The notes under the pieces were generated by a model, which saw only the letters and a list, made by a program, of their open reading frames with translations, made no database searches and was not told the origin of the DNA. This document shows, piece by piece, positions 3,490-9,632 of a stretch of 36,109 bases of DNA (positions are counted from its first letter, which is position 1; each line of letters starts with the position of its first letter). Location of the stretch: the NCBI GenBank assembly GCA_018385395.1, contig JAHBAD010000106.1, positions 1 through 36,109 on the forward strand. The letters are read 5' to 3'. The DNA comes from Treponema sp. (GTDB lineage Bacteria; Spirochaetota; Spirochaetia; Treponematales; Treponemataceae). Position numbers and translations under genes: made by a program.

Positions 3490-4236
3490 ATGAGCACCAA
3501 CAAAAACTATTTTCTTCTGACACTGAAAACCTCTCTGCCTGTATTTTTCGGATACCTTGCCATCGGCATTGCATTCGGTCTTATGCTTACTACAGCCGGC
3601 TACCCGTGGTGGCTCGCCCCTATTATGAGCATCACTATGTACGCCGGCGCCGGCCAGTACATTGCCGTAGGACTTTTTGCCGCAGGTATTCCACTTACAA
3701 TGATTCTCATTACAGAAGCACTTGTAAATATCCGTCACATTGTTTACGGACTTTCCCTCATCACAAAATTTAAAGAATGCGGAAAATGGAAATACTATAT
3801 GATTTTCGCATTAACAGACGAAACATATTCTCTCCTTACCACAACAGATGCACCATTAGATGCAAACAAAGGAAAGTTTTATTTTACAATTGCAATTCTG
3901 AACCAGAGCTACTGGCTTTTAGGAAGCGTGATTGGAGCCGTTGCCGGCTCACTTATTCCTTTTGATTTTGCAGGCGTTGATTTTGCACTCACTGCCCTTT
4001 TTGTTGTTCTGCTTATAGACCAGATTGAAAAATCGGGAGACTTCTTTCCGCCATGTGTCGGACTTCTTACAACTTTCTGTGCTGTCCTTATGTGGAGACT
4101 TGGAATCTTAAAAGATTCAAACAATATCCTTCTGATTGCCCTTGCTTTAGGAATGGCAGTGATTTCGCTTGTACGTTATCCCAAACATAAAAAAGCACTT
4201 ACCGAAAGCGCAGAAAATCAGGGAGGTAACGAATAA
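3490..4236 (+). CDS. azlC: AzlC-family branched-chain amino-acid exporter, large subunit
   Basis: AzlC is the large subunit of the AzlCD (LIV-E) inner-membrane exporter, which in characterised bacteria expels branched-chain amino acids or their analogues. The 248-residue protein has about six to seven membrane segments. It shows the family stretches PVFFGYLAIGIAFGL near the N-terminus, MYAGAGQYIAVGL and NIRHIVYGLSL, followed by a short loop with LTDETYSL. The gene is followed by azlD with a one-base overlap (TAATG), so the two are translationally coupled. No regulator lies beside it. The family is secure; the substrate is inferred. Confidence 0.9.
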   Translation: MSTNKNYFLLTLKTSLPVFFGYLAIGIAFGLMLTTAGYPWWLAPIMSITMYAGAGQYIAVGLFAAGIPLTMILITEALVNIRHIVYGLSLITKFKECGKWKYYMIFALTDETYSLLTTTDAPLDANKGKFYFTIAILNQSYWLLGSVIGAVAGSLIPFDFAGVDFALTALFVVLLIDQIEKSGDFFPPCVGLLTTFCAVLMWRLGILKDSNNILLIALALGMAVISLVRYPKHKKALTESAENQGGNE

Positions 4237-4562
4237 TGCAGCTGACACTTTCACAGGCAATTATTGCAACTTTCTGCATCGCCCTGGTTATTCTTTGCGA
4301 ACGCGCATTTCCATTTGTTCTGTTTACAAAAAAAGAACCGCCTGCCCTCATCCGCTTTATTGAAAAATACATTCCGCCAATGGTTATGGCTGCCCTTGTT
4401 GTTTACTGCCTGAAAGATCTCCAGCCAGGAAACATGGCAAGTCTTGTTCCAAACCTTGCAGGTATACTTATTACCTTCATTGCATACAAATGGAAGCGCA
4501 ATTCCCTTGTAGCAATTTTTGGCGGAACAATCGTTTATATGGTTTTGATCAGAGTTTTATAA
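4236..4562 (+). CDS. azlD: AzlD-family branched-chain amino-acid exporter, small subunit
   Basis: This 108-residue, four-segment membrane protein is the small partner of AzlC. The stretch ERAFPFVLFTKKEPPALI and the following YIPPMVMAALVVYCL are typical of AzlD. AGGGAGGTAACGA in the end of azlC supplies the ribosome site, and the start codon overlaps the azlC stop by one base. The gene ends two bases from the convergent glycan gene, so transcription from both sides collides here. Confidence 0.88.
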   Translation: MQLTLSQAIIATFCIALVILCERAFPFVLFTKKEPPALIRFIEKYIPPMVMAALVVYCLKDLQPGNMASLVPNLAGILITFIAYKWKRNSLVAIFGGTIVYMVLIRVL

Positions 4563-4564
4563 AC

Positions 4565-7063
4565 TTAGATTTTCACACAGTAGATTTCTACTGTGTCACC
4601 AAGATTTTTTCGTAAAGATTTTTTCATAACCTTTTCCCATTCACGTGAACCAGGTTTCGCACCGTTCTTTTTTATTTCAGGGAAACGTTCAGGATGATGC
4701 CCTGTTGAAACAGTCTTTACAACGCTGAATCCGAACTTTTTCAAAATCTTTTTAGCACGGGACGGTTCCCATACAGAATAATGATCTGTCGGACTGATTG
4801 AATAAAAATGATCTTTATCAGTTACGGCAGAAACACCTTGGCCACTTGGAGTTGAAAAAGCAAAGACGCCTCCTTTTTTTACAAGACTTCCCGCTTTTTC
4901 TAAAACGGATTTCAAATTTTGAAAGTGTTCGATTACATACCACATTGTTACGGCATCAAATTCTTTTTTACAAAATTCTTTTTCCGTATCAATTTCAGGA
5001 AAAGCCGAAACGCAGGCTTTGAACCCCAGTTCATTTTTCACACTTTCAACTGCGTCATCACAAATATCAGTGCCATAAACATTCCAGCCCTTTTCAGAAG
5101 CAGCTTTCAAAAAAGGTCCGTAAGCACAGCCGATATCCAGAACAGAAGACTCATTTTTTGGCAGAAGAATTTTATTGATTTCAGAGACTCGTTTTACACA
5201 GGAAACTTTTATATTTTCAAAATCTTCTTTATAGGTTTTTCCATACTGATTTTTATAACTTTCAAAGAAATATTCTTTTTCATATTTTGTTTCTGGAACG
5301 CAGGAAAATGATATATAAATCATTCCGCATTCAGGACAGCGGCGGTAAGTCCTTGTTTCATTTCTGGAAATTATTTTTGCTGATTTTTCATTTTCAAGTT
5401 TTCCGCAAACCGGACAATGATACTGCTTTCCAAAAGCAAGCTGATTCAAAAAAGAAGAATATTTTACAGACCGGTTCATAGATTTAAAAAAAGATTCATT
5501 ATATATTTTTTTATTTCTCAGGTTTTCTTCAATGAATTTTCTGTCAATTTTTTTTACAGAACAATTTGCAAAATCATACTTCTCTGCAAGTTTTTTATGA
5601 AGTTTTGTAGTAGGAAGCAGAACTACCCCACAGCCTGACGAAAGAGATTCAAAAGCTGTAAGACCATAATGAGTGAAAACCAGATCAAAATTCACAAGGC
5701 CTTCACTAAGATTCTGGAGATAAGGAATATACTCAATACGTGTTTCACTTTCAGGACTAACACAATCTATGGAACCAGAAATTTCTGTCTGTGGACGATT
5801 CTTTGTAATAACTATAATTTCTTTTCCTAAAGGAAAAACTTCTTTTAATTTTTCCGCAACAGGAACTGCAAGTTCTGCAGGATCTTCCCCACCAAAACAC
5901 ACAAGGATTTTTCTAAGTTCATCAGAAGATGTTATTTTGGGACGTTTTATATTTGGCAAATCAAGAAAACCAATATTTTCTTTATTAGACTTATAATCGC
6001 TTTTTAATGAAGGAATGATATCAAGAACATAATCAGCGTTATCCCGAAACTTGGAACCGTCATCAATTGTTATGAGAGTTGATTTTCCGTAAAAACAGGC
6101 TTCTTCTTTTGTCATTTCAAAAGGATCAACAATATATGTACAGTCAAAACCTTCTTCCGGAAGGCGTGAAATAACAAGATTCTTTCTCAATCCCTTTTCC
6201 AGAGCTGCATCAACCAATGGCGAAGATTCTGTAACATAAATGAATGCTTCTCTCTCCGCCGCCTGCTTCAGGCAGCGGACAAGATGTCCTGTTCCATGTC
6301 CTTTTTTCATGCAAGGAACAAAAATCACCGGCTTTCTGATTACAGGATTTTTTGCAACTTCCATTATTTCATCTACAGAACATGAAGTCTCAGTTTCAAA
6401 ATTTCTTTTTAAGGAAGCAAGACCATTATAAATGGCTATGGCTCTAATATAATCCCCATAAGTATCCACTGTTGTTCGAAGGTCAGGAGCATAGAATTTT
6501 TCCGGTGCTTTTTCAAATACACAGCGAAAATGATCTTTATGTCTGTATAATGCAGGACCTGCATGTTCATGGTCATAAGGGTCATCTGTCATTCCAGCAG
6601 CTTTTAAAAGTGCATTACCGTCAAAAATTTCAACACCGCTTCCATGAGGAAGACCTGACCAGGTAAGATAATCACATTCTTTTTCAGTTCCACGGAATGA
6701 ATCAAATTCTTCAGCTGATTCCACAGCCGCTTCATAAAAGAGAAAAGGATTGTCCCCCGTTGCACGAACAACTGTATCAAGATTAAATTTTCGGATAACC
6801 ATACAGAAACGTTCAAGAACATCTTCAAGTGGTCCTTCAAAACATTCATATCCTGTTTCATCACAGACCGGCTTAAGCTGTGAAAAGGAATCTTTATCAG
6901 TTGCAAGAATATAAAAATCTGCAGGAACTTTTTTCATGGCTTCAAGTGTCCACTGAACAAGAGGTTTTCCTCCAAGAGGATACAAAGCTTTTCCAGGAAG
7001 TCTTGATGATGAAAGGCGGCACTGAACAACCACACCGCGAACAGGTCTTCTTTTTTCGCTCAT
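4565..7063 (-). CDS. Three-domain glycan enzyme: SpsF-like cytidylyltransferase, PseG/SpsG-like domain, SAM methyltransferase
   Basis: This 832-residue protein joins three enzymes. Residues 1-240 are an SpsF/NeuA-type nucleotidyltransferase with the nucleotide-binding motif RLSSSRLPGKAL (16-27) and RATGDNPF (100-107). Residues 245-545 resemble PseG/SpsG, the GT-B-like UDP-sugar hydrolases of the pseudaminic acid pathway, with GHGTGHLVRC (255-264) matching the GxGHxxRC signature and FTHYGLTAFESLSSG (463-477) as the second nucleotide-sugar site. Residues 545-832 contain a zinc ribbon (C550, C553, C576, C579) and a class I methyltransferase with motif I VLDIGCAYGP (641-650). It is the last gene of a minus-strand operon, three bases after the glycosyltransferase. 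It probably activates, processes and methylates a sugar for a surface or flagellar glycan. The domain calls are firm; the sugar is inferred. Confidence 0.82.
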   Translation of the reverse strand: MSEKRRPVRGVVVQCRLSSSRLPGKALYPLGGKPLVQWTLEAMKKVPADFYILATDKDSFSQLKPVCDETGYECFEGPLEDVLERFCMVIRKFNLDTVVRATGDNPFLFYEAAVESAEEFDSFRGTEKECDYLTWSGLPHGSGVEIFDGNALLKAAGMTDDPYDHEHAGPALYRHKDHFRCVFEKAPEKFYAPDLRTTVDTYGDYIRAIAIYNGLASLKRNFETETSCSVDEIMEVAKNPVIRKPVIFVPCMKKGHGTGHLVRCLKQAAEREAFIYVTESSPLVDAALEKGLRKNLVISRLPEEGFDCTYIVDPFEMTKEEACFYGKSTLITIDDGSKFRDNADYVLDIIPSLKSDYKSNKENIGFLDLPNIKRPKITSSDELRKILVCFGGEDPAELAVPVAEKLKEVFPLGKEIIVITKNRPQTEISGSIDCVSPESETRIEYIPYLQNLSEGLVNFDLVFTHYGLTAFESLSSGCGVVLLPTTKLHKKLAEKYDFANCSVKKIDRKFIEENLRNKKIYNESFFKSMNRSVKYSSFLNQLAFGKQYHCPVCGKLENEKSAKIISRNETRTYRRCPECGMIYISFSCVPETKYEKEYFFESYKNQYGKTYKEDFENIKVSCVKRVSEINKILLPKNESSVLDIGCAYGPFLKAASEKGWNVYGTDICDDAVESVKNELGFKACVSAFPEIDTEKEFCKKEFDAVTMWYVIEHFQNLKSVLEKAGSLVKKGGVFAFSTPSGQGVSAVTDKDHFYSISPTDHYSVWEPSRAKKILKKFGFSVVKTVSTGHHPERFPEIKKNGAKPGSREWEKVMKKSLRKNLGDTVEIYCVKI
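4575..4610 (+). terminator. Possible azlCD terminator inside the convergent gene
   Basis: ACACAGTAG and CTACTGTGT form a perfect nine-pair stem with a four-base loop (4575-4596), followed nine bases later by a T-run. It lies in the last codons of the minus-strand glycan gene, so it must also encode protein there. Confidence 0.4.
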
Positions 7064-7066
7064 TTT

Positions 7067-8020
7067 CTAATTCCAGTTTTCTATAAGAGTCTGCAGATCG
7101 ATTTTAAATTTATATTTATTCTGTTCGAGCCAGCTCATGGCATCTTTAAACTGACGGCGGGCTTCAAACCAGCCGCAACCTGAATGCCGGTAAAAACGTC
7201 CAAAGGATGATTTTTTTATTACAGCATGATCAAGCTTGTATTTTGGAAGTTCGTTCTTAAGATAGAAACGGAGTGAATCAAGATTTGCTGTACTGTCTTC
7301 AACAGGGGCTTCTTCCACAGAATAGGAAAGCTGAAGGGCTGTTGTTATTTTTATTTTTTCGCCCCAAAGCCAGGAACGGACTCCAAAATCAAGAAGCTGC
7401 CAGTAAGGGGATTTTATTGAATAATCAAAACCGCCAACATCAATAAATTTCTGGCGGTTATAAATTCCTACAAAATCAAATGGATATACAGTACTCATAT
7501 CATCCTGAACCTGTGTCAAAGATTCCACGATAAAACGCATTTTTTTTGATGAAGGAATTTTATGAATTGGAAGTGAATTCCGTCTTGAATCAACAAGTCG
7601 GGGAGCAAGACAGATGCAATTATTTTTTAAAAGTTTTTCGGCAAGGTTCGGAAGAAGAACTCCAGACGGAATATAAAGATCATCTTTCAGAACCAGAAGA
7701 AACTCACTTGTTATTTCTTCCATAGCAATATTGATATATTCCCCGTCCGTAACACTTTCATGCGGAATAATAAATTTTACCTGAGGAAACCGATGTGAAA
7801 TTTCTTCGATATTATAATTTCCTGTATCAGGCTCAATTGAAATAATGGAAGCAAAATTGCACTTAATCAGTTCTTCAAAAATTTTCAATTTGAACTGGCT
7901 TCCCATTTTATTAAGAAGAACAACAGAAACATTCATTGGATTAACGGGGAGATTTTCCTTACCGCCTATTGTTGTCCTGTCAACCTGATGCTCATTAAAA
8001 GTTAAAGGTATAGTATTCAT
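7067..8020 (-). CDS. GT2-like (GT-A fold) glycosyltransferase
   Basis: This 317-residue protein resembles family 2 glycosyltransferases. It has an N-terminal Rossmann-like strand MNVSVVLLN, an acidic pair in LVLKDDLYIPSG at the place of the metal-binding DxD, and the late stretch VGGFDYSIKSPYWQLLDFG that resembles the acceptor-side GGFDE...ED region. No membrane segment or signal is present, so it acts in the cytoplasm. The ATG at 8020 is chosen because GGAG lies six bases upstream; it overlaps the upstream gene by 26 bases, so the two are probably translationally coupled. A longer in-frame extension upstream is very Lys-rich and is only the shadow of the upstream gene. Donor and acceptor are unknown; the operon suggests it transfers the sugar made by the fusion protein. 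Confidence 0.7.
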   Translation of the reverse strand: MNTIPLTFNEHQVDRTTIGGKENLPVNPMNVSVVLLNKMGSQFKLKIFEELIKCNFASIISIEPDTGNYNIEEISHRFPQVKFIIPHESVTDGEYINIAMEEITSEFLLVLKDDLYIPSGVLLPNLAEKLLKNNCICLAPRLVDSRRNSLPIHKIPSSKKMRFIVESLTQVQDDMSTVYPFDFVGIYNRQKFIDVGGFDYSIKSPYWQLLDFGVRSWLWGEKIKITTALQLSYSVEEAPVEDSTANLDSLRFYLKNELPKYKLDHAVIKKSSFGRFYRHSGCGWFEARRQFKDAMSWLEQNKYKFKIDLQTLIENWN

Positions 8021-9572
8021 CACAGTCTCCGCAGTTTTTACAATATTTATTTTCAGTCTGATTTTTAATTTCTTCTTCAGTTTCTTTCCATATTTCAGAA
8101 AGAGTTTTTTCAAAAACATTTCCTGTCACTTTTTTATAAAGGCAGTGACAGAATGTTACGTCTCCGTTTGAAAGAATGTTCATATCCCGGCGAAGATGCC
8201 AGCACACATTTCTTTCAACAGGCGAAAGGTCAGCAGGTTTTCTGTCTGGAAGAGTTTTACAGAAAGAATTGTATTTCTGGATAATCAGATTTCCTTTTGA
8301 AGGATTTGATTTTTCATTCCAGTAACGATAAAAAGTTTCAAGTTCCCCTTCATTTTCATTAAGCCTTGTAAACTGAGGATAAGTTGATTCCGGGAAAAGA
8401 TCTGAAACCTTTGCCACACAGGAAAGTGCTTTTTCAAAATCCCCTTCACTTTTTCCACGAAGCTTTGCATAAGTTCCTGAACTTGCCGCATCAAGATTTA
8501 TTGAAATCATGATTTTTTCATAACCGTTTGTTCTTTCAAGAGCACTATCTGAAACGGCCTTAAGTTCCGAGGCAAGGTTTTCGCTCATATAATCTGTTTC
8601 GATAAAAACTGAAAGTCCTGTGAATGAAAGGATTTTTTCAACGATTCTTACAAGGTCAGGATGATTTACAGGATCTCCCAAATAACTCAAATTCACAACG
8701 GCGTTTTCGGAAAAAGCCGCAATCTGTTCTATAAGTAAAAGAGCTTTTTCTGTATCCATATTTTCGCCCTGGTTCAAAGGAGCGTCCGAAGGAACATAAT
8801 CTGGTTTTGAACTGCTTACAGGAGAAAGCTGGATATTGTAATAGCCGGGCACAGTTTTCAAAATGTTTTGATTTTTTGTACATCGAACAGAAACAGCTTC
8901 TGCATCAAGACTTTGTAAATCTTTCTTTTCAGCTTCAGAAAGACTTTCATAAAGTGCCTTACACTGAAGAAGGTTTTCTTTTTTTCCTGTATCAAAGCTG
9001 TAACGGAAAAGACGGTAATCATCATCGGCAAGGACAGTTTCAACTTCAAAGGCGTTGATGTCAGTTTTCAAAAGATCATACAAGGCGGTGCGTGTTATTT
9101 CTGCTTCAGACGCTTTTTTGAAAGTGGAAGCAAAAAGACCTGTAAGGATTCCAAGAGTTCCTGCATCAATCATTTCAGGAGCAAAACCGTAAGAATAGCC
9201 GTCTGCAAAAGTATACTCAGAAAGAAACTCATTATGAGAAGTGATAATTTCAGAAGTTATGCTCCGGTTCAGAAAGGGACAGTCGGCCCAGGCAAAAATA
9301 ACTGATTCAGCACCTGTCTTTTCTGCGGCATTTTTCATCTCAACAACAAGATTTCCAGCTTTCCACTCAGGACTGGAAACAAGTTCACCACGTCCTGAAA
9401 GCAGTTTTTCTACAAGGCTTTTGTTTTCATCAAAAGAAAAAACAATCACTTTTTCACTTTTGTTGGAATGTGCCCAGTCCAGGGCTTTTTCAAAGGCAGA
9501 TACGCCGCCAAAACATGGTTCGGCCATATATTTTGCGTTCTTATGGGCAAATAAAATAGTTACGGTTTTCAT
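7995..9572 (-). CDS. Spiro-SPASM protein: nucleotidyltransferase-like and radical-SAM-like domains with SPASM C-terminus
   Basis: First gene of the glycan operon, 525 residues. The N-terminal ~220 residues look like an IspD/MobA/SpsF-type nucleotidyltransferase with ADCPFLNRS at about 97-105. Residues 240-440 follow the radical-SAM barrel pattern (LSYLGDPVNHPDLVRI resembles the GGEPLLHPD strand), but the place of the CxxxCxxC cluster reads LSPVSSSKPDYVPSD, with no cysteine. The C-terminus is a SPASM domain with cysteines at about 457, 475, 477, 511, 514 and 517. This combination matches what I recall as the spirochaete-restricted spiro-SPASM family. It probably binds one auxiliary Fe-S cluster but cannot do standard radical-SAM chemistry. 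GTG at 9575 is an alternative start one codon upstream. The function is unknown; the neighbours point to glycan synthesis or attachment. Confidence 0.75.
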   Translation of the reverse strand: MKTVTILFAHKNAKYMAEPCFGGVSAFEKALDWAHSNKSEKVIVFSFDENKSLVEKLLSGRGELVSSPEWKAGNLVVEMKNAAEKTGAESVIFAWADCPFLNRSITSEIITSHNEFLSEYTFADGYSYGFAPEMIDAGTLGILTGLFASTFKKASEAEITRTALYDLLKTDINAFEVETVLADDDYRLFRYSFDTGKKENLLQCKALYESLSEAEKKDLQSLDAEAVSVRCTKNQNILKTVPGYYNIQLSPVSSSKPDYVPSDAPLNQGENMDTEKALLLIEQIAAFSENAVVNLSYLGDPVNHPDLVRIVEKILSFTGLSVFIETDYMSENLASELKAVSDSALERTNGYEKIMISINLDAASSGTYAKLRGKSEGDFEKALSCVAKVSDLFPESTYPQFTRLNENEGELETFYRYWNEKSNPSKGNLIIQKYNSFCKTLPDRKPADLSPVERNVCWHLRRDMNILSNGDVTFCHCLYKKVTGNVFEKTLSEIWKETEEEIKNQTENKYCKNCGDCDEYYTFNF

Positions 9573-9632
9573 CACTTATATATCGGCATAAAAAATATCC
9601 GGTTTAAGAGCAATTTTAAGGATTTATCCGTA

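Follow-up and report, generated by a model that had tools for sequence, protein, structure and literature searches.

The window analysed here, a 36,109-nucleotide stretch of DNA from a Treponema sp., carries on its reverse strand an open reading frame of 832 amino acids (4565..7063, stop included, ATG start) in which an SpsF-like cytidylyltransferase, a PseG/SpsG-like GT-B domain and a zinc-ribbon methyltransferase follow one another in a single chain. An earlier note had read these three identities, and a spirochaetal, Treponema-like origin, from the letters alone; it gave neither the strand nor the operon genes that lie upstream. The origin was borne out, and the domain assignments are upheld by Pfam, by the NCBIfam model TIGR03590, by four invariant cysteines and by active-site motifs that are undamaged in the window protein (RLSSSRLPGK, GDNPFLF, GTGHLVRC, GGED and LDIGCAYG). 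All domain and motif coordinates below refer to the reverse strand, and invariance was scored over an alignment of 62 sequences.

The SpsF-type cytidylyltransferase domain occupies residues 9-243 (6335..7039) and contains the motifs RLSSSRLPGK, GDNPFLF and LPHGSGVE. CTP_transf_3 (PF02348) spans residues 11-213 with an E-value of 6.4e-27 and 95.2 bits, against a curated cut-off of 22.6, and residues R16, S19, R21, K25, D104 and N105, which belong to the RxxSxRLPGK-type motif and to the Asp/Asn of GDNP, are invariant. The PseG/SpsG-like domain (residues 246-540, 5444..6328) contains the motifs GTGHLVRC (residues 257-264, 6272-6295), GGED (5882-5893) and HYGLTAFE (5648-5671), with G257, G259, H260 and R263 invariant, H260 being the histidine of GxGHxxR. 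TIGR03590 (PseG) was the only model to match this domain; it matched all 62 aligned homologues (best E-value 1.3e-15), in one relative (L140) with 66 bits over profile positions 10-267 of 280. The curated cut-off of 153.55 bits was reached neither by the window protein, where the match is weak (27 bits), nor by its relatives (at most 66 bits), and the domain is therefore filed as PseG-like rather than as PseG. A zinc ribbon of the form CPxC...CxxC follows (residues 546-590, 5294..5428), whose cysteines C550, C553, C576 and C579 are the invariant set, and leads into a class-I SAM methyltransferase domain (residues 591-832, 4568..5293) with the motifs LDIGCAYG, WYVIEHF and HHPERFP, in which Methyltransf_23 (PF13489) spans residues 629-783 (E-value 9.3e-25).

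Predicted structure of the three domains

The whole chain was modelled with AlphaFold2 from the 62-sequence alignment, giving a mean pLDDT of 91.9 and a pTM of 0.90, and both of the first two domains took up nucleotide-sugar folds, in line with what the earlier note had expected of them. The solved structure closest to domain 1 in both fold and sequence is 6oew, a cytidylyltransferase from another spirochaete, Leptospira borgpetersenii (Z 28.5, 25% identity; sequence profile E-value 1.5e-29), although 6oew is a single-domain protein; next come CMP-Kdo and CMP-NeuNAc synthetases. NCBIfam names KdsB for this domain, but Kdo activation was rejected, since those scores lie far below the cut-off and the likeness to 6oew and SpsF is stronger. 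The ribbon and methyltransferase superpose on the sugar C-methyltransferases MtmC, TcaB9 and KijD1 with Z 22-24 over about 230 residues, sharing with them a zinc-binding N-terminal part followed by a Rossmann methyltransferase. These proteins of about 405 residues align only up to residue 265-266, where the fusion ends at residue 832, so that their C-terminal part has no counterpart in it. For the fusion, either O- or C-methylation would fit.

The middle domain, modelled alone (pLDDT 91.9), took up a GT-B fold, for which the best of the matches listed was MurG with UDP-GlcNAc (Z 16.2); a search of solved structures with a profile of this domain found no relative. The solved PseG of Campylobacter jejuni was absent among the matches listed, to which we give no weight either way. 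The modelled fold by itself would fit either a hydrolase or a transferase. It is conceivable, though unlikely, that the domain is a nucleotide-sugar glycosyltransferase (or an epimerase), and that the protein activates a sugar, transfers one and methylates the product. MurG and other glycosyltransferases are the closest folds among the matches listed, TIGR03590 scores are all below the cut-off, a GxGH motif within a GT-B fold would also suit a glycosyltransferase, and Glyco_tran_28_C gave weak matches in 6 of the 62 homologues. However, among NCBIfam models PseG matches best and is the only one to do so consistently, covering nearly the full profile together with GxGHxxRC in several sequences; genes of the SpsF and SpsG/PseG types also adjoin in Caulobacter, as flmC and flmD (PMC7591256), and in the genomes tested no other PseG-like protein was found except a probable MurG, judged as such from its length. 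We therefore retain the PseG/SpsG-like hydrolase as the preferred reading.

A conserved locus around the fusion

Three bases upstream of the fusion, and in the same operon, lies a gene for a GT2-like protein of 317 amino acids (7067..8020, reverse strand), matched by Glycos_transf_2 below threshold (E-value 0.0054). It occupies the same place beside the fusion or the SpsF gene in most relatives. This protein belongs to an uncharacterised spirochaete family to which no Pfam model matches above its cut-off. It is overlapped by a third gene of the operon, encoding a spiro-SPASM radical-SAM protein (7995..9575, reverse strand; TIGR04321, 507 bits), whose synteny holds through most of the phylum and whose family was not named in the open-licence literature searched. 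The N-terminal third of this protein (8874..9572, reverse strand) is a degenerate SpsF-like nucleotidyltransferase domain, which hhalign matches with the fusion's SpsF domain at a probability of 96.4% (E-value 1.4e-9, 218 columns); the nucleotide-binding motif R-x-x-S-x-R-L-P-G-K is not present in this region. This degenerate domain may bind the fusion's own SpsF domain or form a dimer with it.

Across the phylum the recurrent gene order is spiro-SPASM, GT2-like, SpsF, PseG-methyltransferase, ATP-grasp, amidase and GerMN, the GT2-like and ATP-grasp genes being absent from some distant lineages. In the genome of the window the last three genes lie on another contig (C93), and the fusion is followed instead by convergent AzlC/AzlD-like genes (3490-4562), which by sequence inspection are branched-chain amino-acid transporter genes and which end 2 bases from its 3' end, where relatives have ATP-grasp, amidase and GerMN. 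The ancestral locus is thus broken up in this genome. The conserved ATP-grasp enzyme (L048:8501-10183; ortholog in the window's genome at C93:3097-4701, also L132) is of the L-amino-acid-ligase type and is encoded 3' of the fusion in the majority of Treponema and in many further spirochaetes; it is a candidate for the amide-forming enzyme that would place an N-acyl group on the sugar. The fusion operon adjoins neither neuB nor flagellar genes.

Nonulosonic acid genes elsewhere in the genome

The placement of the fusion in a nonulosonic acid (NulO) pathway, as the earlier note had proposed, is supported by genes found outside the locus. Two NeuB-type synthases are encoded in the genome of the window, and one in a single-contig genome of the size of that of T. 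pallidum (G056, 1,139,633 bp). The contig that carries one of the NeuB genes (C41) also encodes a PseC-like aminotransferase (328 bits, against a cut-off of 423.5) adjoining a PglF/PseB-like dehydratase, and Maf-type proteins number two in the window's genome and four in the 1.14-Mb genome. The two NeuB genes of the window's genome (L033:6594-7724 and L034:2775-3905) are paralogues with SAF domains, each directly following a small lipoprotein-like gene, and close relatives have one to four copies of the family.

The product of NeuB needs a CMP-NulO synthetase before it can be used. In 8/8 carrier genomes the sole CTP_transf_3 match was the fusion or its SpsF part, and NeuB was present in all those checked among the eight, which leaves the fusion as the only visible candidate for the CMP-NulO synthetase. 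Maf proteins were present in 19/19 carriers of the locus and in 1/15 non-carriers (Fisher p 1e-8), an association between related, non-independent genomes that is no test of independent events. Two non-carrier families (f9 and f12) are without flagellin, and a third (f6), with genomes of about 1 Mb and probably corresponding to the Borreliaceae, has flagellin and is without the locus, NeuB and Maf. A Maf/MptE-like protein (G250:C8:10564-11064) was seen in a genome without the locus, in a family without flagellin.

Taking these observations together with the domain assignments, we consider it likely that the fusion combines three activities in one cytoplasmic enzyme of spirochaetal NulO biosynthesis, which feeds flagellin glycosylation by Maf. 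The middle domain would hydrolyse a UDP-linked 2,4-diamino-2,4,6-trideoxyhexose derivative (the PseG/SpsG step), a separate NeuB-type synthase would condense the freed sugar with phosphoenolpyruvate, and domain 1 would activate the resulting NulO with CTP to give CMP-NulO (the PseF/SpsF step). The zinc-ribbon methyltransferase would methylate the sugar or its acyl substituent, and Maf-type glycosyltransferases would place the CMP-activated sugar on flagellin before export. The fused protein would accordingly combine the step before NeuB, the step after it and a methylation. Substrate channelling, which the earlier note had offered as one possible reason for such a fusion, is unsupported, because the synthase that acts in between, NeuB, is not part of the chain and because SpsF is separate in most lineages outside the Treponemataceae, leaving many relatives without the fusion. 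A more likely reason would be co-expression or complex formation with NeuB. A methylated acidic sugar, also suggested in that note, is plausible as the product.

The link to the flagellum that had been suggested from the sequence holds up against the literature, since the FlaB proteins of T. denticola carry a novel glycan of 450.2 Da that is essential for filament assembly (PMC9481697), and which is O-linked near the D1 domain (PMC7431986). In the open-licence literature searched, no description was found of the enzymes responsible for the treponemal glycan. The T. denticola flagellin glycan is reportedly a nonulosonic acid of the pseudaminic type whose N-acyl chain bears a methoxy group; if so, its synthesis would call for exactly the kinds of enzyme encoded here, a methyltransferase and an amide ligase of the ATP-grasp type.

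The CMP-activated NulO of this operon could instead be destined for a surface polysaccharide or glycolipid, a destination that we regard as improbable. In its favour, the Bacillus subtilis pair SpsF and SpsG contributes to the spore surface (PMC7439481), the genes that neighbour the operon are for an amidase and GerMN and not for flagellar proteins, and a GT2-like protein is encoded within it. Yet the locus is retained in the 1.14-Mb genome alongside four Maf copies, Maf, NeuB and the locus occur together, and the non-flagellated families are without the locus, all of which speaks against a surface destination.

Conservation and evolution of the fused gene

The distribution of the fusion was followed in 296 genomes, all Spirochaetota, 49 of which are from the family of the window (Treponemataceae). 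All three domains lie in one open frame in 46 of these 49; of the remaining three, one gene contains a stop, another lies at contig ends and the third is interrupted within the GT-B domain. The fusion is likewise one open frame in 66 independently retrieved loci, among cultured species in T. bryantii, T. porcinum and T. saccharophilum, and in G056, one of the 46, it forms an 862-amino-acid protein with all motifs. The idea that a frameshift or assembly error has joined separate genes, to which the separate SpsF frame of most lineages outside the Treponemataceae and the gene of G288, broken inside its GT-B domain, might have lent something, can be dismissed as vanishingly improbable, since the same fused frame recurs in independent genomes. 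The fused protein is genuine and complete, and it is widely conserved among spirochaetes.

Outside the Treponemataceae, SpsF mostly has a gene of its own, placed immediately upstream of one for PseG-methyltransferase, and the full fusion is also found in a second, distant group (G015, G038, G060, G053 and G001). A tree of the PseG-methyltransferase part requires four changes between the fused and unfused labels, and a single change suffices in 0/200 bootstrap trees. Two of the four are probably no true fissions, as the gene of G067 is seemingly cut by a contig end and that of G288 is broken. At least two changes, by fusion or by fission, are left, so that a single origin of the fusion was rejected in its simple form; parsimony prefers two separate fusions, though one ancestral fusion followed by repeated fission is conceivable. 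The chain of G288 (L157, 2014-4733) is split between the lobes of the GT-B domain into two frames that overlap by 4 bases, by frameshift or by fission.

Discussion

The two activities predicted in domains 1 and 2 of the fusion are those of SpsF and SpsG of B. subtilis, where spsG is needed for full levels of legionaminic acid and spsF for legionaminic acid delivered to the surface; a spsF mutant still makes legionaminic acid without delivering it, which fits a role in activation and is no direct assay of it (PMC7439481). By genetics, the CMP-NulO pathway of B. subtilis has a separate synthase, SpsE (PMC7439481), as NeuB is separate here. In B. subtilis, however, SpsF and SpsG are separate proteins, no methyltransferase is joined to them and the destination is the spore crust. 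Caulobacter crescentus, in which flagellin glycosylation is needed for motility, has neighbouring genes for a cytidylyltransferase (FlmC) and a PseG-type protein (FlmD) and a separate NeuB (PMC7591256), but these are unfused, the glycosyltransferase is FlmG and not Maf, and there is no zinc-ribbon methyltransferase. Fusions involving SpsF are known, since a NulO cluster of Vibrionaceae and Moritella joins an SpsF-like domain to an aldo-keto reductase (PMC7371886), a different partner, with neither a PseG nor a methyltransferase domain. Another spirochaetal NulO gene fusion, of a synthase with a phosphatase and thus of other enzymes, occurs in Leptospira interrogans (PMC3438082).

Each domain of the fusion is thus of a known kind or similar to one, and the pairing of SpsF with SpsG/PseG genes is also already known (PMC7439481, PMC7591256). 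What is new, as far as the open-licence literature shows and allowing for an earlier description elsewhere, is the three-domain architecture, near-universal in the Treponemataceae, the locus, spread across the phylum, that adds a radical-SAM protein and an ATP-grasp enzyme, and the gap-filling argument, based on gene content, for the fusion as the putative CMP-NulO synthetase.

SpsF-type cytidylyltransferases are usually dimers. Tentatively, and with considerable doubt, the products of the locus might form a single assembly of several enzymes for an unusual NulO, with the degenerate domain of spiro-SPASM docked onto the fusion's SpsF domain; the sugar or its N-acyl chain would then undergo radical-SAM chemistry, methylation and amide formation by the ATP-grasp enzyme. 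Such an assembly, if real, would represent a new way of making a nonulosonic acid that is both methylated and N-acylated. The trifunctional reading of the fusion names a concrete set of candidate genes for the flagellin glycosylation on which filament assembly depends in T. denticola (PMC9481697), and synteny links two orphans, the spiro-SPASM radical-SAM family and an ATP-grasp enzyme, with the metabolism of NulO. This gene set has been kept even in a 1.14-Mb, T. pallidum-sized genome.
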